DNA of 64,000 bases from Sphingobacteriaceae bacterium (GCA_947479815.1 CANKAT010000003.1:1-64000); one strand, 5' to 3'. Positions 2,813 to 15,417 are shown, numbered from the stretch's first letter. Program-made: numbers and translations. Notes: generated by a model from the sequence alone, not told the origin.

Positions 2813-3856
2813 TTATAGTAGTATCGATTTTAAATCTAGCCTATCTCCTCTCTCTAAGTTTTTGGTTATTGTCTTCCCCAAAATCTCTTTATAATATTTT
2901 GTATGCAATCCGTAGCCTGGCCTAATAGATCTTATATTTTCTGTTGTTATTTGTTCACCTTTCTTTATGTCTTTCGTGACATATAATGATCTTGAAAATT
3001 GCCTTGCTTGTTTCTGCTTCTCTGTTAGTTCATAAGTAACTTTACCAATAGCCTTCTCAGCTTCTCTAATTTCCATTACCATCTGCGTAAATTCCTCTTC
3101 ATTCATTGAAAATGAGGCATCGGGACCGCCTAAATTACGATCTAATATAAAATGCTTTTCGATAATTTTTGCTCCAAAACATGTTCCAACAATTGGCGCT
3201 ATTGAACCAATTGTATGATCGGATAATCCGCTAATAACACCATAGCGCTCTGAATAATCTTTTATCATTATCATATTTGCTTCCTCAATTGGTGCTGGAT
3301 AGCTTGAGGTGCATTTTAGTAATGCTATATCATAATTTCCCATTCTCTGGCAAGCATCCAATGCCAATTCAATATCCTCATTAGTAGCTATCCCTGTAGA
3401 AATAATGATAGGTTTCGCCTTAGAGGCGACATATTCTATTAATGGTATATCGGTAATTTCGAAAGAAGCTATTTTATATGCCTGTACATTTAATTCTTCT
3501 AAAAAATCTACCGCTGTCAAGTCGAATGGAGAAGAAAAACATGCAAGCCCTTCCTGTTCAGCAGCTTCCAATAATTTTTTATGCCATTCCCAAGGAGTAT
3601 AGGCTTCTTGATACAAATCATACAAATATTTCCCATCCCAAATAGTTCCGCTATTATGCAAAAAATCTTCCCCCTTGAAGTCAATTGTTATAGTATCTGC
3701 TGTGTAAGTTTGTAGCTTGATTGCATTTGCCCCAGCTCTTTTAGCAGCTTTTATCGTTTCTAAAGCAATATCTATGCTCCCATTATGATTAGCCGATAAT
3801 TCCGCGATTATAAAAACAGGACTAAACTCGTCAATTGTAAAATCAGAAATTTTCAT
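2813..3856 (-). CDS. pseI: Pseudaminic acid synthase
   Basis: 347 residues, the usual length for NeuB-family synthases that condense phosphoenolpyruvate with a 6-carbon amino sugar. The TIM-barrel domain (about 1-280) shows IAELSANHNG near residue 17, KLQTYTADT near 47, the subgroup-typical GTIWDGKYLYDLYQEAYTPWEWH block near 70, SGLSDHT near 210 and EKHF near 236. A C-terminal antifreeze-like SAF domain covers about 290-347. The aromatic YTPWEWH block favours PseI over sialic or legionaminic acid synthases. The preceding HAD gene ends 1 base before its ATG. Product: 5,7-diacetamido-L-glycero-L-manno-nonulosonate or a variant. Confidence 0.9.
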   Translation of the reverse strand: MKISDFTIDEFSPVFIIAELSANHNGSIDIALETIKAAKRAGANAIKLQTYTADTITIDFKGEDFLHNSGTIWDGKYLYDLYQEAYTPWEWHKKLLEAAEQEGLACFSSPFDLTAVDFLEELNVQAYKIASFEITDIPLIEYVASKAKPIIISTGIATNEDIELALDACQRMGNYDIALLKCTSSYPAPIEEANMIMIKDYSERYGVISGLSDHTIGSIAPIVGTCFGAKIIEKHFILDRNLGGPDASFSMNEEEFTQMVMEIREAEKAIGKVTYELTEKQKQARQFSRSLYVTKDIKKGEQITTENIRSIRPGYGLHTKYYKEILGKTITKNLERGDRLDLKSILL

Positions 3857-3857
3857 A

Positions 3858-4535
3858 TTATGTATTTTTCGTTAGTACGTCTACCAATGCCGGGAAATCT
3901 ACTAAATCTTGTATAATATACTTTGCTTCATATCCATCCCTGGCTACTGCTTCTTTGTGGCCTCCTGTTAATACCCTAACGGTATTAGCCCCTTTTACAT
4001 TAAGGTTTACAAAATCTTTGGCAGAATTATCACCAATATAAACCAGTTCACTCCATGCACAATTTTCACGCATCATAATTTTTTCAAAACAATATATAGA
4101 CGGCTTGGCGTTTTTAACTCCATATCGGTGTGTGATATAGACATGCTTGAAATATTTCGAGATTCCTAATTCTTTAATCTTGTTACTTTGCACAAATTTA
4201 TTCCCATCCGTAACTATATATAAAGAGTAAACTGCAAGCCCCTCTAAAAGACGAAAAGTATTATCTGAAATTTTTATTGCTGGTTTATGGGTCCTGTAGA
4301 TTGACAGAGCCTTATCGATCAGGCTCTTACTCTTCTTCCCTAAACATTTATCAAGCCATATGTCAAAAACCTGTCCTCTACCATGTCGCTCCAGAATTTC
4401 CATCATAAAATCGAATGATTCATCTGCATCTTTCCCGAATTGCAAGTATCCCCAATTTGATACAGCAGTGAAACCACTCCTGACAAAACTCATCTCGTCA
4501 TATAATGTATCATCGAGGTCAAATATTAGAACCAT
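3858..4535 (-). CDS. HAD-superfamily phosphatase
   Basis: 225 residues from ATG 4535 (MVLIFDLDDTLYDE). A longer in-frame start at 4619 would add 28 non-conserved residues lying wholly inside the upstream gene, so the internal ATG was chosen. HAD motif I is DLDDTLYD at residues 5-12, motif II is IVTDGN in the middle, and motifs III/IV are KPSIYCFE and YIGDNSAKDF. It overlaps the fused dehydratase/ATP-grasp gene by 17 bases and is 1 base from pseI. Likely role: dephosphorylation of a sugar or acyl phosphate intermediate in the same pathway. Many HAD proteins are annotated as nucleotidases, but the context argues for a glycan intermediate; the substrate is unknown. Confidence 0.85.
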   Translation of the reverse strand: MVLIFDLDDTLYDEMSFVRSGFTAVSNWGYLQFGKDADESFDFMMEILERHGRGQVFDIWLDKCLGKKSKSLIDKALSIYRTHKPAIKISDNTFRLLEGLAVYSLYIVTDGNKFVQSNKIKELGISKYFKHVYITHRYGVKNAKPSIYCFEKIMMRENCAWSELVYIGDNSAKDFVNLNVKGANTVRVLTGGHKEAVARDGYEAKYIIQDLVDFPALVDVLTKNT

Positions 4536-6435
4536 AGATATATATGTCTTGTGGAATTCTAACTTGTCTAATCTTTTCCTCTTTGAAACGGAATGGATAA
4601 CTTGAGAGGTCTTCTCCAATAGATTCTAATAAGAACCAATAAAATGAATCAAGGCCTGCCTTTATCGCCAAAGTTGATGCTCCCCCAAACCTACTGTTAC
4701 ATTCAATTATATGAGGCTGATTATTATCATCGACTATCAACTGTAAAATAACGTGTCCCCGAACGTCAAGTTTAGTTAACGCGTCCTCAACAATTTCTTC
4801 AATCTCTAAGTTGTGCAGTGTTGTTGTTATTTGAGATTCGCCATTTACAACCTTATCTCGTGTGCGCAATATTATTCCGTGAACTTCCCCAATATTGTTA
4901 ATATATGCATCCGCACTAAGTTCCGTCCCAGAAATAAATGGCTGAAAAATCGGATTAATCAGCCCCTGCGCGTGCTCAACTGATTCTGCTTTAGTAAGTG
5001 CGATTCCAATTGAAAGCGATCCCGCACCAAATCTTTCTTTTACTACATAGAGGGGACTCGTGCAATCATCTAAGTTTTCGAATGATGGTATTGACGGAAT
5101 ATTTTCAGCTACGCAAAATTCACTAAATTCCAATTTATCCAAACAGCGATTTATAGAACTAGCGCTGGAAATCATAACATTAATTCCGTGTTCAGCCAGT
5201 AAAGCTTTATTTTTTGCCCAAAAAATTAATTCTCCGTCCCTTGAGGGTACAACAAATTGAATATTATTTTCTGAACACCAACTGATAATATTTCCAATAT
5301 TCTCCTCTTTCGTCTGCGGCATTACCCAAAATTCGTCCGCTACAAATGAACTCAGAACCTGAGGGTTAATATCGCCAGCTACTACATTTATATCTGTCGA
5401 TATCTTAGCAGCCGCATCTTTCAAGGATCTCACTAGAGATACTTTTTGAGATGCGCTTGACACAAGAATTTTACCCCACTTAACTGATTTAGAATCCGAG
5501 TTTCGCTCTCTCTCAAATTCGATTATCTCCGGAATGGCTCTTTCAATATCATATTCAGGCTGCCATCCCGTAATCTCTTTTAATAACTTAATATCAGACT
5601 GCGACGCTTCGAATAAAATTTCAGACTGTTCCTCTTTAACTTTCATATCGGGAAAGTGCTTCCGTAAAGTATCAACAACTTCACTTACCCTCCTTGATCT
5701 TCCTGTACCTAGATTTACAATGCCAGTAGACACCACTGAATTAGCAAGCCTTAAAAGACCTTCAGCGGTGTCCTTGGAGTATATAAAATCAAACATGCCT
5801 TCCTTTTTAAATACGGTGATCTCTTCACCGTTCAATAAGCTTCTGACCCATCTCGAAATTACGTCTCGTGAACCTAGCCCGAATCCCCTAAAAATTCTGG
5901 TCAACACTATTTGATATTGTTCAGAGCGAAATTTCTCTAAAAATCTAAGTTCAATTTCATGCGATAATTTAGCCATCCCTGTAAGATTCCTTGGATATAC
6001 CGGATCAGATTCTTTAAGGGAAACCGCGGTTTCTCTTGGCTCTGTAAAAGAATAAAGCGCTGGATCGTATATCAAATAGCTTGATGCGAAAACCACTTTT
6101 TTTATGGACTTAAGATCTTTAGCCAGGCTCATAAGATAATTACTCAGACGAACGTTATGCCAAAAATTTTCATACCAGAATTCATAAGATTCCGTTGATC
6201 GTTCAAATGTTGCTGCCAGGTGAATAAAAAATTCAGGCTCAAATGATTCGAGTTCCGCTGACGTCATTAAATTAAGATCGCCCTGCCGATAGCGTAACTT
6301 TCCCTTCCATTTTTCCGGGCAAGGCTTAAGATCACCCGTGAACACGATTGCTCCTTGCGTTAAAATTTTAGAGATTAATTCCTTCCCAATTACTCCAGCC
6401 CCTCCACTTATGAAGACTCTTCTATCCTTAAACAT
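4519..6435 (-). CDS. Fused NAD-dependent epimerase/dehydratase-like and ATP-grasp protein
   Basis: 638 residues in two domains. Residues 1 to about 310 are an extended SDR with an N-terminal Rossmann motif (SGGAGVIG near 10). Where the catalytic YxxxK is expected the sequence reads NLTGMAK, so the Lys is kept but the Tyr appears to be Thr. Residues about 320-638 form a pre-ATP-grasp plus ATP-grasp ligase (VVKERFGAGSLS nucleotide loop, IIECNSRFGGAS metal-binding segment), CarB/PylC-like. It overlaps the GNAT upstream by 8 bases and the HAD gene downstream by 17. Likely role: binding a nucleotide sugar and attaching an acyl or amino-acid group using ATP. This is inference; no described enzyme with this pairing is recognised here. 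Confidence 0.85.
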   Translation of the reverse strand: MFKDRRVFISGGAGVIGKELISKILTQGAIVFTGDLKPCPEKWKGKLRYRQGDLNLMTSAELESFEPEFFIHLAATFERSTESYEFWYENFWHNVRLSNYLMSLAKDLKSIKKVVFASSYLIYDPALYSFTEPRETAVSLKESDPVYPRNLTGMAKLSHEIELRFLEKFRSEQYQIVLTRIFRGFGLGSRDVISRWVRSLLNGEEITVFKKEGMFDFIYSKDTAEGLLRLANSVVSTGIVNLGTGRSRRVSEVVDTLRKHFPDMKVKEEQSEILFEASQSDIKLLKEITGWQPEYDIERAIPEIIEFERERNSDSKSVKWGKILVSSASQKVSLVRSLKDAAAKISTDINVVAGDINPQVLSSFVADEFWVMPQTKEENIGNIISWCSENNIQFVVPSRDGELIFWAKNKALLAEHGINVMISSASSINRCLDKLEFSEFCVAENIPSIPSFENLDDCTSPLYVVKERFGAGSLSIGIALTKAESVEHAQGLINPIFQPFISGTELSADAYINNIGEVHGIILRTRDKVVNGESQITTTLHNLEIEEIVEDALTKLDVRGHVILQLIVDDNNQPHIIECNSRFGGASTLAIKAGLDSFYWFLLESIGEDLSSYPFRFKEEKIRQVRIPQDIYIYGSNI

Positions 6436-7012
6436 TGCTATTATTATTATTTAGTACGCTGTGTAGAAGTGAATCCACATATTTGTTTTCTAATATTATA
6501 TGATCCCTCATCGTGCCTTCCAGTACTAATCCACAAGATTCTAAAACACTTATATGATGTACACGAGTGGCATAGGTTTCAGTGAATAACTTATGAAAAT
6601 TCAGATGTTCAAACGCAACTGTAAGCATTAATTGTATGAACGCCGTAAAATGCTTCCCGTATTCTTTATCGTTTCCAGTAAGATCAGAATCGAGAAGAAA
6701 AGACATTTCGGCTCTTTTATCTTGCCAGGATATGTGCACTAAGCCCCCATAACCAATACGTTTGTTATTATCAAAAAAAGTGAAAAGAATATTATCTGGG
6801 TTACACTGTTCCATCGATGGCCATATAACGGAGGAATAATATTCTACCTGTTGGCTATATTCGATAGGCGAAGACTGCCTTAACACTGTCATCTGCGCAT
6901 TTCTCCAATTTCTAATCACCTCAATATCTTGCGGTTGAATAGTCGAAATTGCATAATTTCCCAGAGTAAATTGGTTTTGAGCAAGACACAAATATTGCTT
7001 TCTTAAACTCAT
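6428..7012 (-). CDS. GNAT N-acetyltransferase, PseH-like
   Basis: 194 residues with the RimJ/RimL-type GNAT fold: an N-terminal strand (ISTIQPQDIEVIRNWRN), a central GYGGLVHI strand and a C-terminal FHKLFTETYATRVHHISVLESCGLVLEG block typical of acetyl-CoA-dependent sugar acetyltransferases. In pseudaminic acid synthesis this step is N4-acetylation of UDP-4-amino-4,6-dideoxy-L-AltNAc by PseH, and the gene lies between pseC and pseI. An alternative acyl group is possible given the adjacent ATP-grasp protein. The start overlaps the upstream methyltransferase stop (ATGA) and the end overlaps the fused gene by 8 bases. Confidence 0.75.
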   Translation of the reverse strand: MSLRKQYLCLAQNQFTLGNYAISTIQPQDIEVIRNWRNAQMTVLRQSSPIEYSQQVEYYSSVIWPSMEQCNPDNILFTFFDNNKRIGYGGLVHISWQDKRAEMSFLLDSDLTGNDKEYGKHFTAFIQLMLTVAFEHLNFHKLFTETYATRVHHISVLESCGLVLEGTMRDHIILENKYVDSLLHSVLNNNNSNV

Positions 7013-7884
7013 TCCTTTATTTTATAAAATCCTATAATATTCCTACCTAAACCCACCTTGGCCATTCCCCTATAAAAATTATTAACATCTTTCAAAGGAA
7101 AACCGCTAAGATAATTGTCCAATTTGATTCTTGACAAATGCGCGTCCTTACCTTTTGACCGGTCTAACACATAATTTGACTGTTTATTTGCCAAAAACAG
7201 ATCGATTGGGAAATCTGCAATTAAATCCCTTTGTAACCAGCCACCGAACTCACAAGCTTTCTCAAGACTATTTTTCTCGAAGTACGAAATGTGGTCCGGA
7301 GCAGCCACCCAAAATTGATCATTTATAAAATTCTGGTCTGTTAAAAACTTCTGAAAAAGAGAAAAGTCATTAGGAACTGTTATCACTAGGATCGAATCTT
7401 TATGTGAAAGCTCCCTGATATTTTTTAAAAGGGCAATCGGGTCTAGTACATGCTCTAATACGTTTGTTAATGCAATAACATCGAAAGTTTCACCATGTTG
7501 CTCTAATCGCCTCATATTTTCATAGATATTCCCAACCATTAAATATGGAACGCTTTGCGGATTCATCTTAGAACATCCGAATTCACTAAAATTTAAACCT
7601 AGAATCGTCCAATCTTTCTTTCTAAAAAACTCAAGCATGTAGCCTTCTCCACAGCCAATATCCAAAAATCGATCGCCATTGCTTTGCAGTTCTGAGATGA
7701 TTTGATATCTCTGTTCATTTTTGTTATCGAAGAATTGCAATTCTTCACGTGAATACTGTGATCGATATATAGCGTGCTCTTCCTGATAATATTTGGTGGA
7801 ATAATAATCAGCTAGTTCTTCTTCAGAAGGCTTGTTTAACAACTCATAAAAGCCAAGATCATTTTTTCCAACTAAATTGTTCAT
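7009..7884 (-). CDS. Class I SAM-dependent methyltransferase
   Basis: 291 residues. SAM motif I is FLDIGCGEGY near residue 72, followed by a LGLNFSEFG strand and FDVIALTNVLEHVLDP near 135, the Methyltransf_23-type pattern seen in glycan O- or N-methyltransferases. The N-terminal 55 residues (YYSTKYYQEEHAIY) resemble the lead segment of sugar methyltransferases in which a short Tyr-rich stretch precedes the fold. It is translationally coupled to the GNAT (ATGA). It may methylate the nonulosonic acid or a neighbouring sugar; the acceptor is not deducible. Confidence 0.8.
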   Translation of the reverse strand: MNNLVGKNDLGFYELLNKPSEEELADYYSTKYYQEEHAIYRSQYSREELQFFDNKNEQRYQIISELQSNGDRFLDIGCGEGYMLEFFRKKDWTILGLNFSEFGCSKMNPQSVPYLMVGNIYENMRRLEQHGETFDVIALTNVLEHVLDPIALLKNIRELSHKDSILVITVPNDFSLFQKFLTDQNFINDQFWVAAPDHISYFEKNSLEKACEFGGWLQRDLIADFPIDLFLANKQSNYVLDRSKGKDAHLSRIKLDNYLSGFPLKDVNNFYRGMAKVGLGRNIIGFYKIKE

Positions 7885-7891
7885 GCTTATA

Positions 7892-8242
7892 TTATGATTT
7901 ACGTTCTTGCTGTAATTTATATTTGATTTCCGCGATTATCCAATCGGACTGCGAATCAATATCTTGAACATCCTGCTCGTCCAGAATAAGAGAGCTCAAA
8001 TTATCTGTGAATATAGACTCGTCTATAATACTTGGTCGATACCAGTACCACTGACCTGCATCGTGATATACCTTCTTCAGATCTTGCGAACGAGAGCTCA
8101 GGTACTCTGGCCAAATCATTTTCGTATGACCATTAGCATCGATTTCCAAAGCCCTCCATACGGGCGATCCGTAGGCCACTATAGGAAAAACAGTCGCGTA
8201 ATTTCCGTCTTCTCTTAATACAACCCGTCTTCTCATCCCCAT
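7892..8242 (-). pseudogene. pseF: 5'-truncated pseudaminic acid cytidylyltransferase (pseF remnant)
   Basis: The 116-residue frame matches only the C-terminal half of PseF-type CMP-nonulosonate synthetases (about 230 residues): NYATVFPIVAYGSPVWRA, then SSRSQDLKKVYHDAGQWYW and VQDIDSQSDW near the end. The N-terminal nucleotide-binding half, with the PARGGSKR loop, is absent. Upstream in the same frame there are only four sense codons before the TAA of the SpsF-like gene, so the missing half is not hidden in that frame. It is read here as a deletion remnant, although a separately translated domain cannot be excluded. If it is dead, the CMP-activating step must be supplied by the SpsF-like neighbour or by a gene outside the window. 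Confidence 0.7.
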
Positions 8243-8254
8243 CTGGCAATGTAA

Positions 8255-9109
8255 TTAATGGATTTTATTTCCAAAAACTCGCTTTATTTTTTGCGCAGCT
8301 CTTTTAAGATTATATTTTTCTAAAAGAACTACTGCAGCTTTTAGCTCATCTTCTTCCTTGACGTAATGGTTTATTTGAAAATTTGAGTTATTTACGTCAA
8401 ACAGCCAGGGGTTAGCGTTAAACATTTTATCGATAAGATTTAGACCTACGGGATTTTCTTCGTTTACCTGAGACAAAATTATTGAGAGTAGAACAAAATC
8501 AGAAGGATAATCAACCGATAGCCTTAACCCACTATAGACGTTATTATGATATATAACATTACCTTTTCTATACCCCTCATTATTTCTAATATACAATGTA
8601 ACATGCTCCTTTTCTTCTAAAGTTAACTCTTTGCTTTCCAAACCAAGAATAGATTCAGGATTTATAACCTCTACATTCATCCCGACAGGGAGCCCTATTG
8701 TATAAGTATAATCATTTTGATGTTCCAAATGATTTTTAATTATACTATCAAGAACATCAATATCTATAATTGGATTATCACCCGTTAATCTCACAATTAA
8801 ATCAAATTTATCCAACTTTGAAATTGCAATAAATCTGCTTAAGACATCGGTTTCTTCTCCTCTAAAACAGGTTATGTCACGTTCATCACAAAAATTACTT
8901 ATCGCGTCGCTGCCCGGATTTCTTGATGTAGCTACAATAACTGTATGATTAAACTGGCTTTTTTTCAACTCATCCGTAATCCACTGTAATAAAGGCTTCC
9001 CTGTTTGGTAAGGGATAGGCATAAGAACCTTGTTAGGTAATCTTGTAGATTCCATTCTAGCTTGAACAATGAATCCAACAAGGGCGTTATTTACTTGTCC
9101 AACCACCAT
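8255..9109 (-). CDS. SpsF-like cytidylyltransferase / nucleotidyltransferase
   Basis: 284 residues. The N-terminus has the family signature VQARMESTRLPNKVL near residue 16, in place of the PARGGSKR loop of classical CMP-sialate synthetases, followed by VRLTGDNPIID near 107, the metal-binding region. This is the SpsF/CMP-KDO synthetase-like family found in spore coat and nonulosonic acid loci, often beside an aldo/keto reductase as here. Likely role: activation of an acidic sugar with CTP. The ATG overlaps the SDR gene by 23 bases; no better start is seen. It ends at a TAA directly in frame with the pseF remnant. Confidence 0.8.
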   Translation of the reverse strand: MVVGQVNNALVGFIVQARMESTRLPNKVLMPIPYQTGKPLLQWITDELKKSQFNHTVIVATSRNPGSDAISNFCDERDITCFRGEETDVLSRFIAISKLDKFDLIVRLTGDNPIIDIDVLDSIIKNHLEHQNDYTYTIGLPVGMNVEVINPESILGLESKELTLEEKEHVTLYIRNNEGYRKGNVIYHNNVYSGLRLSVDYPSDFVLLSIILSQVNEENPVGLNLIDKMFNANPWLFDVNNSNFQINHYVKEEDELKAAVVLLEKYNLKRAAQKIKRVFGNKIH

Positions 9110-9872
9110 CTATAATAATATTTTGTCCTGTGATAAACGCGGATGCTTCTGATGCAAGAAATACAAAAGCACCTGCCAGATCGTCGGGAGTTCCAATCTT
9201 ATTTAAACTTGTTTTGCTATTTAGTTCTTTCACGAAGTCTTCATGTAGTTGTACTGATGGGGTGGGAAATGGGCCTGGTGTAACTGTATTTACATTAATT
9301 CCATGTAACCCCAAATAGCTAGCATAATACTTAGTTAGTTGTATAATACCAGCTTTTGCTGCGCCATAGTGAGGCGCATTTAAAAACTGAGGCGAACTAT
9401 TATAAATTTCAAACTGAGGAGCGACCATCCCATACATGGACGATACATTGATTATATTTCCCGCACTCACACGTTTGAAATAAGGTATAACTTCTCTAAT
9501 ACATCTGAAAACACTACCCAATACCCCATCTATTCCCGTATTCCAGTCGTCATCTGTCATTTCTTCTGGTGATTGCCCTTTGCTGTAGACAGCATTGTTT
9601 ATTAAAACATCAATTTTATTGTTCTCTTGATAGACATGCTCAAATGCTTTTTTTATACTATTGGTTTCAGCCACGTCACAGTAGTTAAAAAATAAGCGGA
9701 TATCAATATGGATATTTTCATCAAAAGCCCTTAAAAATTTATCTTTACTTCTACCAAGTACGTATACTTTAGCTCCATGATAAACAAGACTTTCAGTTAT
9801 AGCCTTACCTAAATAACCATATCCACCTGTTACTAAAATTACTTTGCTTTCTAAGTTGAATGTTTTGATCAT
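9087..9872 (-). CDS. Short-chain dehydrogenase/reductase
   Basis: 261 residues, a classical SDR. The cofactor loop TGGYGYLG is near residue 15, NNA near 90, the catalytic Ser lies in NVSSMYG and the YxxxK motif in HYGAAKAG near 178, and the C-terminus IIIDGGW is typical of the family. The active-site residues are intact. Homologous SDRs (PtmA-like) sit in flagellin and nonulosonic acid glycosylation loci, where they are thought to modify or recycle the 9-carbon sugar. It lies 7 bases after the aldo/keto reductase and overlaps the SpsF-like gene. The substrate is inferred from context only. Confidence 0.85.
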   Translation of the reverse strand: MIKTFNLESKVILVTGGYGYLGKAITESLVYHGAKVYVLGRSKDKFLRAFDENIHIDIRLFFNYCDVAETNSIKKAFEHVYQENNKIDVLINNAVYSKGQSPEEMTDDDWNTGIDGVLGSVFRCIREVIPYFKRVSAGNIINVSSMYGMVAPQFEIYNSSPQFLNAPHYGAAKAGIIQLTKYYASYLGLHGINVNTVTPGPFPTPSVQLHEDFVKELNSKTSLNKIGTPDDLAGAFVFLASEASAFITGQNIIIDGGWTSK

Positions 9873-9879
9873 GGGATTA

Positions 9880-10713
9880 TTAATTCGGCCAACAGGATGG
9901 CATTAGTATTGAATCAGAAAGCTTGCCATTAAATTTTGATAATTGTTCTGTTGCCCCTAATTCAGCCAAATTAATTCTTAATTGTGCTAGATTTTCGACT
10001 CCTATTATAATACAATCAACAAAATCCATCGAAAGAACATACTTCAGTAAAATCTTAGGTAATGTGATTCCGTACTTCAATTGTAATGTACTTATAGAAT
10101 CTTTCACGGAATCAAAAAAAGGCGGCAATTTCTTGACATCTGTTAAAAAAAGTCCCTGCAAAAAGGTCGAACGGGTATGAACTTCACACCCCGCTGCCTT
10201 TAAAGATATTAATGCTTCCATAAACCTAGTATCGAAATAGTTAAATGGTACCTGAACCAGGTCAGGATAAAAACCTGCACTTAATAAATTTTGTAACTCT
10301 GAGGGTTCATTCAGAGAAAAACCGATTTTTTTGACCTTATTCTGGTGTTTAAGCATTTTTAATTGCTCCCAATGATCGGTATTATTTAATAAATCCATTG
10401 GCCGATGCGCCAAATAGCCATACAGGTAATCTATATTTAGGTTAATTAAACTTTTATTAAGACAATCTGATAGACTTACACCATTTGATAACGGTAGAAA
10501 TTTAGACACAACTTTAAATTCTTCCAGGTTATTTAATCCTAAAACTTGTTCAGAAGTACCATATGCTGAAGCTGTATCAATTATGTTGACCCCCTTATTA
10601 GTTGCATATGCGAGAATATCGCTTACTTCCTCTTCTTTGGTTTGTCCGTTAGAATTAGAGATGCCATAAGGCATTCCAAATTGTGCGGAACCAATTCCAA
10701 TTTTAGGATTCAT
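9880..10713 (-). CDS. Aldo/keto reductase
   Basis: 277 residues with the NADPH-dependent TIM-barrel fold. It starts IGIGSAQFGMPYG and has the catalytic Asp/Tyr in IIDTASAYGTSE near 45-52, Lys in VVSKFLP near 89 and His in YLAHRP near 118, so the tetrad is present. This group often neighbours or is fused to SpsF-like cytidylyltransferases in glycan loci. Likely role: reduction of a keto intermediate of the nonulosonic acid branch. It overlaps pseC by 11 bases, so the two are probably co-translated. The substrate is unknown. Confidence 0.85.
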   Translation of the reverse strand: MNPKIGIGSAQFGMPYGISNSNGQTKEEEVSDILAYATNKGVNIIDTASAYGTSEQVLGLNNLEEFKVVSKFLPLSNGVSLSDCLNKSLINLNIDYLYGYLAHRPMDLLNNTDHWEQLKMLKHQNKVKKIGFSLNEPSELQNLLSAGFYPDLVQVPFNYFDTRFMEALISLKAAGCEVHTRSTFLQGLFLTDVKKLPPFFDSVKDSISTLQLKYGITLPKILLKYVLSMDFVDCIIIGVENLAQLRINLAELGATEQLSKFNGKLSDSILMPSCWPN

Positions 10714-11872
10714 AAAAAGCTTTGATCTTATTTATTACGAATTTTTGCTCTACTTCTGTTAATGTGGGATACATCGGCAGGCTTAGACATTGAGCGTAAA
10801 AGCTTTCAGACTGGGGCATATCTCCATTTTTCCAGCCAAACTGACGATAATAAGGCATAAGATGTACCGGAATATAATGCACCTGTGCAAATATATTTTC
10901 TTCTCTCAAATATTGAATGAGCCCCTCCCGATCCTTAGCTTCAATTACATACAAGTGATAGGCGTGTCCATCGATTACCCCAGACTGTCTCTGGATATAC
11001 GACTTACCTTCAAAAGCCTTTTGGTACGTCATCGCAATTTCAATTCGTTTAACTATGCCTTCTTCAGCTCTGGATAGCTGACTAATAGCCAACGCTGCTT
11101 GCATGTCCGTCAAGCGATAATTATATCCTATTTCCTGCATCTCGTAATACCAAACTCCATGATTTTCTATTTTTAAATCTGGATTTTGCTGAATACCGTG
11201 AGTCCTTAAATTTAAAATATGATCATATAGATCTTTGCTATTAGTAGTGATCATTCCGCCCTCACCTGCAGCTATATGTTTTACAGGATGGAAAGAAAAA
11301 ACTGCCAGATCTGCAAATTCTCCATTCCCGCAGTTCTGCTTTTTACCTTCGCTATCTATAAAATATCCGCCAGGAGAATGACAAGCGTCTTCTATGATCC
11401 ATAACCCAAACTCGTCAGCCAGCTTTCTAAACTCTTCTAGATCATTCGCTCTTCCTGCAAAGTCGACAGGAATGACCCCTTTGTAGGTGCCTTTTGGAGA
11501 TGCTTCTAATAATTCTCTAAGTTTTTTAATATCCAAAAGATAGGTGTCCGGATTTATATCGGAGAACACAACATCACCACCGCAATATCTAACACAGTTT
11601 GCTGAGGCGGCGAAAGTAATAGGCGTTGTGATCACTTTGTCTCCCTCTTTAACTCCCAATGCCATTGCCGCCAAATGAAGTGCGGCTGTCCCATTAGATA
11701 CAGCAATGGCATATTTACAGCCTATATATTGGGCGAATGCTTCTTCAAATTCCTTGATCTTAGGCCCTTGGGTTAAATAGTCTGAGCGAAGCGTTTCGGT
11801 TACAGCTAATATATCTTCTTCTTTTATATTTTGACGACCATACGGTATACGTTTGGGTGAGTTATTTTGCAT
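10703..11872 (-). CDS. pseC: UDP-4-amino-4,6-dideoxy-N-acetyl-L-altrosamine transaminase
   Basis: 389 residues, a DegT/DnrJ/EryC1 family PLP aminotransferase of normal length. Visible signatures are IPYGRQNIKEEDI at the start, VSNGTAALHLA near 59, EDACHSPGGYF near 161 and the PLP lysine in FSFHPVKHIAAGEGG near 190. The N-terminal YGRQ.I and SFHPVKHI blocks are characteristic of PseC, the second pseudaminic acid enzyme, which transfers an amino group from glutamate to the 4-keto sugar made by PseB. PseB itself is not in this window. It is the first gene of the tightly overlapping nonulosonic acid run. Confidence 0.88.
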   Translation of the reverse strand: MQNNSPKRIPYGRQNIKEEDILAVTETLRSDYLTQGPKIKEFEEAFAQYIGCKYAIAVSNGTAALHLAAMALGVKEGDKVITTPITFAASANCVRYCGGDVVFSDINPDTYLLDIKKLRELLEASPKGTYKGVIPVDFAGRANDLEEFRKLADEFGLWIIEDACHSPGGYFIDSEGKKQNCGNGEFADLAVFSFHPVKHIAAGEGGMITTNSKDLYDHILNLRTHGIQQNPDLKIENHGVWYYEMQEIGYNYRLTDMQAALAISQLSRAEEGIVKRIEIAMTYQKAFEGKSYIQRQSGVIDGHAYHLYVIEAKDREGLIQYLREENIFAQVHYIPVHLMPYYRQFGWKNGDMPQSESFYAQCLSLPMYPTLTEVEQKFVINKIKAFYES

Positions 11873-14187: not shown

Positions 14188-15417
14188 TTATACTATTTCA
14201 ATCTCAGGTAGAGGGAATATGAATTTGCCACCCTGTTGAATATACTCCCTCTCGCGCTCAAGAATTGAATTTTTAAAATGCCAGGGTAGTACAAGAAAGT
14301 AATCGGGTTTCATTTCTTTGGCTTCTTTCTCAGAAATGATAGGAATATGTGTTCCGGGAGTGAAGCTTCCAAACTTTTCTTCGTTAACCTCTGCAATATA
14401 TGGTATTTGATCTTTTGTAAAATTACAGAACTGCAAAAGTACATTACCTTTTGTTGACGCTCCATATCCAAATATCTTTTTCCCATCGGCAACCAAAGCT
14501 TCGATCAGATCAACAAGATTTTTACGGTGCTTAAACACACGCTCCTCAAATTCACGGTAGGGCTTAGGTGTATCCAGCCCCATATCATCTTCTTGTTGAA
14601 TCATCCAGTTAATAACCGGGGTATTAGATTTATATGGCGCATCCTTTTTACAAGCGCTTATAGCAAAACTCCCACCATTAATAGCATTCATTTGGACATC
14701 AACTACTCTCATGCTACAAGCCTCCAAGAGATTCTTAACCACCTTGAATGAATAAAACTCTAAATGCTCATGACAAATCGTATCGTATGAGGTTGTACGC
14801 AACATAGACGGCATATAACTTTGTTCAAAATGCCAAATCCCATCATTAGCTAAACATTGTTCTATATCCTTAACAAAGTCCATCGGACTTTCTAGGTCAT
14901 AGAACATGGCAATAGATGTAATTATCTTAGCTTTCTCATTAGGAAATTGGTTTTTAAATGCTTCCGCACTAAAGAAAGTTGGTATCAGAGAGATCTCATC
15001 GGTGTAGAACTCTTTGAACTTAAGCCCTGTAGGATCGATTCCGACTTTACGATGTTTGCCACTGTAAGCTTTTAATGAGGTTGCATCATTGCTACCAATG
15101 TCAATTACCAAATCATCATCGCTCAATTTTACTAGGCGCTCCAGTGTGTGAATCTTGTTAGTAAGATGGCGAACCATCGAAGCATTAAGACCGGACCTAT
15201 AGCCGTAATTATCACCGTACATTTCATCCAGACTATACGATTGTTTCATTTGCAGCAAGCCACTATCCGGACACCATACAAGATCTAATGGCCCTTGTGT
15301 AACAACCTCATCCACTGTTTTCGGAAAAACACCAGTTAAATATTGTGAACCTAATGAAAGCACAGTTACTAGGTTTTTACTACCGCTAATACGGCATTTC
15401 GAAATCTCAGTATACAT
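14188..15417 (-). CDS. Sugar C-methyltransferase-type protein (TylC3/NovU-like)
   Basis: 409 residues in three parts: an N-terminal small domain (residues 1-75) that in the family binds zinc, a SAM-dependent core (DIGSNDATSL near 106, the sequence form of motif I in this group) and a C-terminal domain with FGYGASTKGN near 305 and PDYFLVLPWHF near 378. The EMYGDNYGYRSGLN and CHEHLEFYS blocks are diagnostic. The family methylates a carbon of a keto-deoxysugar nucleotide. Two family Cys positions read Ser here (CRIS and CPDS rather than CxxC), so zinc binding may be lost. There is a 103-base gap to the downstream SDR-like gene. Confidence 0.85.
   Translation of the reverse strand: MYTEISKCRISGSKNLVTVLSLGSQYLTGVFPKTVDEVVTQGPLDLVWCPDSGLLQMKQSYSLDEMYGDNYGYRSGLNASMVRHLTNKIHTLERLVKLSDDDLVIDIGSNDATSLKAYSGKHRKVGIDPTGLKFKEFYTDEISLIPTFFSAEAFKNQFPNEKAKIITSIAMFYDLESPMDFVKDIEQCLANDGIWHFEQSYMPSMLRTTSYDTICHEHLEFYSFKVVKNLLEACSMRVVDVQMNAINGGSFAISACKKDAPYKSNTPVINWMIQQEDDMGLDTPKPYREFEERVFKHRKNLVDLIEALVADGKKIFGYGASTKGNVLLQFCNFTKDQIPYIAEVNEEKFGSFTPGTHIPIISEKEAKEMKPDYFLVLPWHFKNSILEREREYIQQGGKFIFPLPEIEIV

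Follow-up and report, generated by a model that had tools for sequence, protein, structure and literature searches.

An SDR/ATP-grasp fusion protein that probably acts in place of PseH in pseudaminic acid gene clusters without PseG

Pseudaminic acid (Pse) and its N-acyl variants are sialic acid mimics that occur on flagella, S-layers, and capsules. What, then, does a protein that joins an extended SDR to an ATP-grasp domain do in a Pse gene cluster in which neither PseG nor PseH is recognizable? The question is raised by a 64,000-nucleotide stretch of DNA from a Sphingobacteriaceae bacterium (GCA_947479815.1 CANKAT010000003.1:1-64000), here called the window. We found that the fusion is real, conserved, and more widespread than had been apparent from the window alone, and we think it probable that, together with a neighboring HAD protein, it carries out N4 acylation in a variant Pse pathway, in which it replaces PseH.

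The original prediction placed a 638-residue SDR/ATP-grasp chain at 4519-6435 without stating a strand. The ORF lies on the minus strand, from 6435 to 4519, and the four motifs listed for it (SGGAGVIG, VVKERFGAGSLS, IIECNSRFGGAS, and NLTGMAK) were each found in the protein. Pfam matches, every one above its cut-off, comprised Epimerase at residues 7-243, PylC-like_N at 323-420, and ATP-grasp_3 at 433-585. A profile search based on 23 homologues returned the ATP-grasp protein of PDB entry 2pn1 (E=1.9e-29) and the UDP-glucose 4-epimerase TM0509 (E=4e-20). AlphaFold modeled both domains of the whole chain confidently (mean pLDDT 87.9), with a full-chain pTM of only 0.58, so the arrangement of the domains in the model is unreliable. 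Foldseek matched the model to 2pn1 and to many nucleotide-sugar SDRs, the SDR half resembling TunA, MoeE5, GalE, and GME. The features of the fusion are as follows.

4522..5490, minus strand: ATP-grasp half, residues 316-638, a PylC-like/carbamoyl-phosphate-synthase-like carboxylate-amine ligase domain (Pfam PylC-like_N and ATP-grasp_3; 2pn1)
5482..5496, minus strand: flexible linker, residues 314-318, the sole stretch with pLDDT below 50
5491..6435, minus strand: SDR half, residues 1-315, extended-SDR/epimerase-like (Pfam Epimerase, E=1.1e-20, 74.5 bits)
5968..5970, minus strand: codon of Lys156, the invariant Lys of YxxxK (K in 36/36)
5980..5982, minus strand: codon of Thr152, at the Tyr position of YxxxK, facing the Tyr of YGIAK in the TM0509 alignment

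Scanning GTDB species genomes with a two-sequence alignment for other SDR/ATP-grasp fusions yielded 35 loci, one of them ending at a contig edge; a single-sequence pattern scan of genome contigs gave no fusion match. Within the Bacteroidota the carriers were Hymenobacter and others. Outside that phylum they included Pelosinus, Paenibacillus, Saccharibacillus, Hoeflea, Nitratireductor, Thiolinea, and Allopseudospirillum, as well as a Nitrospirae MAG, a Desulfobulbaceae MAG, and a Falkowbacteria contig. The homologues are about 50 to 60% identical across phyla, and a fusion held at that level is not a chance event. The single match in a plasmid search, from Sinorhizobium, had the ATP-grasp part only.

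The ATP-grasp half has kept its catalytic residues throughout: none of K466, E505, R524, R526, E578, N580, and R582 varies among the 36 aligned fusions. With the fold and the catalytic Lys, Glu, Asn, and Arg of a carboxylate-amine ligase in place, we predict that this half is an ATP-dependent amide-forming ligase. The best sequence and fold matches of residues 323-597 are 2pn1 and the "carbamoyl phosphate synthase-like" ATP-grasp proteins of PRK12767/NF009405, which, unlike the fusion, have no SDR half; the PDB entry for 2pn1 assigns no function. The fusion scored 159.8 bits against the NF009405 (PRK12767) equivalog cut-off of 390, and carbamoyl phosphate synthesis is a disfavored role, the name being that of a broad database family only.

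The SDR half had been described as having Thr where the catalytic Tyr should be, and this turned out to be a property of the whole family. The SPYGIAK segment of TM0509 aligns with RNLTGMAK of the fusion, which puts Thr152 at the YxxxK position. Residue 152 was Thr in 31 and Cys in 5 of the 36 aligned fusions and Tyr in none, with the Lys retained in all 36; Thr152 is therefore not a local mutation, and no aligned homologue keeps YxxxK. Nor did the alignment show an active-site Tyr at some other position, with the reservation that the invariant Tyr120, which adjoins the catalytic Ser119, could be one. Tyr123 is likewise invariant, and the glycine-rich motif, Asp35, Ser118, Ser119, and Lys156 are invariant or nearly so. 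The Rossmann fold and the glycine-rich NAD motif of extended SDRs are present (SGGAGVIG, Pfam, Foldseek). The fusion thus shares fold, NAD motif, and catalytic Ser and Lys with extended SDRs such as TM0509, MoeE5, TunA, and UDP-glucuronate decarboxylase but differs from them in its family-wide Thr or Cys and in being joined to an ATP-grasp domain.

Because position 152 holds Thr or Cys and never Tyr, canonical Tyr-based proton transfer has been lost. Judging from the conserved residues, cofactor and nucleotide-sugar binding appear to have been kept under selection, and a purely passive sugar-binding domain is a plausible description, about which we are evenly divided. Of the competing explanations the one that fares best is that the SDR half still works, as an epimerase, a dehydratase, or a reductase, by using another residue, for example Tyr120 or Tyr123, so that the fusion would make a further-modified sugar and then acylate it, a reading compatible with N4 acylation. 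The invariance of Tyr120 and Tyr123 makes a substitute Tyr conceivable, and that of the NAD-binding motif, Asp35, Ser118/119, and Lys156 makes residual chemistry possible. Against this, Thr and Cys replace each other at the catalytic position while the nonulosonic acid pathway genes stay unchanged, and a related cluster (G279, L011:1501-3054) has no SDR half at all: its GNAT1 is fused directly to an ATP-grasp domain, with HAD and PseI coming next. The SDR half is hence unneeded for the ATP-grasp step as such, and we consider a working SDR unlikely, though it is the strongest of the alternatives.

The fusion lies in an operon whose neighboring genes, from PseC through PseI, are spaced −23 to +12 nt apart. 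Listed from PseI backward, the genes around the fusion are as follows.

2813..3856, minus strand: PseI, pseudaminic acid synthase (TIGR03586, 504 bits; cut-off, 340)
3858..4535, minus strand: HAD-family phosphatase (Pfam HAD_2), its ATG at 4535 lying within the end of the fusion gene
6428..7012, minus strand: GNAT1, a GNAT fold without the acetyl-CoA loop and a candidate PseG substitute (Pfam Acetyltransf_4)
7009..7884, minus strand: SAM methyltransferase, linked to the ATP-grasp version of the cluster (Pfam Methyltransf_23)
7892..8242, minus strand: ORF matching the C-terminal half of PseF only (TIGR03584 positions 123-221, 95 bits; cut-off, 205.7)
8255..9109, minus strand: CMP-sugar cytidylyltransferase-like protein (Pfam CTP_transf_3, E=7.5e-34)
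9087..9872, minus strand: classical SDR dehydrogenase (Pfam adh_short_C2)
9880..10713, minus strand: aldo-keto reductase (Pfam Aldo_ket_red)
10703..11872, minus strand: PseC, UDP-4-amino-sugar transaminase (TIGR03588, 467 bits; cut-off, 423.5)

The order of transcription is thus PseC, aldo-keto reductase, SDR, cytidylyltransferase-like protein, PseF C-terminal half, methyltransferase, GNAT1, fusion, HAD, and PseI, with PseI and PseC above their curated cut-offs. A PseB-like gene, which adjoins PseC in many homologous loci, is on another contig of the window's genome (320 bits; cut-off, 407.75). The PseF-like ORF adjoining the CTP_transf_3 protein may belong to a split enzyme or, alternatively, be a relic. 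The aldo-keto reductase and classical SDR genes between PseC and the cytidylyltransferase (9087-10713) reappear in some Pse clusters, whether or not these have the fusion (e.g., L030, L125, and L135).

This arrangement is conserved. The order GNAT1, fusion, HAD-PseI recurs across phyla. In all 35 loci the end of GNAT1 lies no more than 120 nt from the start of the fusion, nearly every locus has HAD beside its ATP-grasp gene, and, where the sequence extends far enough, the fusion is nearly always accompanied by HAD, PseI, PseC, and a cytidylyltransferase. Every context with readable neighbors was a nonulosonic acid locus, and the contrary case, homologues found only outside glycan loci, did not arise.

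We then looked for the two Pse enzymes missing from the operon. PseG (TIGR03590) was not found in the window's genome (best score, 21.5 bits), and none of the 22 + 35 carrier genomes searched had it above the cut-off; once a few genomes represented twice are allowed for and the window's own and six Flavobacteria-like ones are added, the total is about 60 distinct genomes. Of 395 Bacteroidota genomes sampled, 56 carried PseI above the cut-off. PseG without a GNAT1 next to PseI was the pattern in 47 of these and GNAT1 without PseG the pattern in 9; 0 of 56 had both or neither (Fisher p=1.3e-10, a value that overstates independence because the sampled genomes are related). The search was sensitive enough, since it detected PseG in every genome without GNAT1. 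As for PseH, the window cluster contains no PseH-type GNAT, its sole GNAT being GNAT1. Other GNATs are encoded elsewhere in the genome, and because an unlinked N-acyltransferase could act, a gap in the cluster says less than a gap in the whole genome would. Such a gene was also missing from 34 of 35 ATP-grasp loci (L028-L062), the exception, L056, having a 50-bit remnant only.

L056, from the Desulfobulbaceae MAG, carries traces of both genes. A PseG remnant at 9077-9412 (residues about 5-114, 46% identity, its frame terminated by a stop) lies 27 bp before GNAT1, and the PseH remnant, at 14477-14749, lies directly before PseI. Between the two are GNAT1, the fusion, two methyltransferases, and HAD. 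It therefore seems that the module displaced PseG and PseH together, as one unit.

GNAT1 clusters without the fusion show what else can occupy its position. Their usual order is PseB-PseC-PseF-GNAT1-X-PseI. In some of them X is a PseH-type GNAT that resembles the PseH domain of PseG fusions elsewhere (E down to 1e-27) and that often forms one chain with GNAT1 (L104 and L106). In other clusters X is another GNAT (L120, L205, L212, and L214) or a formyltransferase with Formyl_trans_N and Formyl_trans_C domains (L111, L206, L207, L213, and L215), the formyltransferase gene in L206 and L207 standing directly before GNAT1 instead. In clusters of the window's type, X is the SDR/ATP-grasp fusion plus HAD. 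Amino-sugar N-acylating enzymes of the GNAT and formyltransferase types are already known. Because the other occupants of the slot N-acylate, N-acylation of the PseC product is the most parsimonious role for the fusion. The GNAT1-ATP-grasp fusion of G279 parallels the PseG-PseH and GNAT1-PseH fusions.

Gene order and the L056 remnants both give the fusion the PseH slot, which argues that it acts on the UDP-4-amino-6-deoxy sugar before PseI. The ATP-grasp half would use ATP to convert a carboxylic acid to an acyl phosphate and then acylate the PseC product, UDP-4-amino-4,6-dideoxy-L-AltNAc, on its 4-amino group, forming what would become the N7 amide of the nonulosonic acid. The SDR half would most likely bind or position the UDP-sugar, HAD would remove a phosphate from the acyl group, the methyltransferases would often cap that group, and GNAT1 may remove UDP in place of PseG. 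PseH (TIGR03585), the N4-acetyltransferase, occupies the same place in the gene order and presumably serves the same acceptor amine; it has a GNAT fold and uses acetyl-CoA, whereas the fusion is an SDR/ATP-grasp ligase that would use ATP and a carboxylate.

The role originally proposed was different: a ligase tailoring a nonulosonic acid. Its location in a nonulosonic acid locus is borne out, and that the fusion always occurs there, together with known ATP-grasp genes of late glycan elaboration (PMC5207246), speaks for acyl or aminoacyl transfer to the finished nonulosonic acid or CMP-nonulosonic acid after PseI. The tailoring itself, however, is probably wrong. It would leave the cluster without an enzyme for the obligatory N4 acylation, and the module sits in the PseH slot, has replaced PseH where the L056 remnant survives, and alternates with PseH and formyltransferases. 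We regard this alternative as improbable.

If the fusion does act as an N4-acylating enzyme, HAD and the methyltransferases may indicate what it transfers. Most of 33 HAD copies retain the HAD motifs, with DxDxT present in 32. As regards HAD and METHYLTRANSFERASES, a methyltransferase of the window's type was present in 28 of 38 distinct ATP-grasp loci versus 1 of 22 other GNAT1 loci, or in 15 of 21 ATP-grasp loci with Hymenobacter counted once. A TylF-like methyltransferase was present in 24 of 38 versus 1 of 22 (7 of 21 with Hymenobacter counted once), and 5 of the 38 had neither family nearby. Loci from one genome present in two collections (L023/L043, L198/L030, L199/L037, and L200/L053) were left out of the final counts. 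The linkage of methyltransferases to ATP-grasp loci fits an acyl group with hydroxyls, and, HAD being a constant partner, the acid may carry a phosphate, with 3-phosphoglycerate as the simplest candidate. By analogy with known glyceroyl-type Pse derivatives, and given HAD and the methyltransferases, 3-phosphoglycerate might be the donor of a glyceroyl group, a suggestion that we make only tentatively.

A HAD gene also stands beside 8 of 10 ATP-grasp relatives that lie outside Pse loci, where a DegT aminotransferase is frequently present too, which gives the pair the look of a portable unit for N-acylation. The pairs concerned (L162-L164, L166-L169, and L171) possibly represent a general amino-sugar acylation unit.

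Several published systems bear comparison. A Clostridium difficile mutant in the ATP-grasp gene CDR20291_0245 loses a peptidylamido sugar on flagellin (PMC5207246); this precedent is an ATP-grasp gene required for an amide-type sugar modification, there of flagellin, but it lies in a different locus and has no SDR half described. An ATP-grasp gene was also noted in the sfm flagellin locus of Shewanella (PMC3765264). In the parts of the Clostridium acetobutylicum study available to us (PMC4000134), the cluster CA_C2186-2199 has the ATP-grasp gene CA_C2189 near a nonulosonic acid synthase, an epimerase, and a methyltransferase; epimerase and ATP-grasp are listed there as separate genes, and those parts hold no N4-acylation proposal. 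In Tannerella forsythia, the gene for the N7 glyceroyl group of Pse5Am7Gra "remains elusive" (PMC6120980). Unknown genes interrupt its pse genes, a likeness by description, but pseG and pseH are annotated there, unlike here (PMC6120980). No T. forsythia-like locus was recognizable in the taxonomic orders to which G279 and G161 belong or in the class of the window's own genome. Across open-access full texts, as distinct from subscription papers and preprints, we found no description of an SDR/ATP-grasp fusion, of GNAT1, or of a Pse pathway without PseG and PseH.

This leaves the removal of UDP. The predicted structure of GNAT1 has a confident GNAT fold (pLDDT 94.3), nearest to SpeG and Helicobacter pylori PseH (4ri1), and no RGxGxG-type CoA loop where ordinary GNATs have one. 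Because X varies between formyl- and acetyltransferases while GNAT1 is constant and PseG always missing, the strongest candidate for the PseG step is GNAT1; the phyletic pattern gives it roughly even standing in that role. We know of no GNAT-fold sugar-nucleotide hydrolase. HAD was rejected as a PseG substitute, as PseG-less clusters with PseH or formyltransferase in the slot show no HAD match beside PseI. That GNAT1 is still the N4-acetyltransferase, with SDR/ATP-grasp/HAD performing the PseG step or an extra decoration, draws on its distant relationship to PseH (26.6 bits, below the cut-off) and the 4ri1 fold match but is improbable: GNAT1 has no acetyl-CoA loop, and it occurs alongside a separate PseH-type GNAT or formyltransferase in genomes that lack PseG and have no ATP-grasp/HAD module at the locus, so that the module cannot be a general PseG substitute.

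The clusters may together encode an undescribed but widespread Pse route without PseG and PseH, in which GNAT1 is the hydrolase and the acyl slot is filled by an acetyltransferase, a formyltransferase, or ATP-grasp/HAD with a Tyr-less SDR; we hold this broader scheme with somewhat less confidence than the assignment of the fusion. If it is true, a full alternative route is encoded in clusters that would be annotated as incomplete, GNAT1 is a new use of the GNAT fold, the N7 chemistry (acetyl, formyl, or ATP-ligated acyl) can be read from one gene slot, and a route to unexplained glyceroyl-type substituents becomes testable. The formyltransferase-like gene beside GNAT1 in PseG-less Pse clusters, for its part, predicts N-formyl pseudaminic acids.
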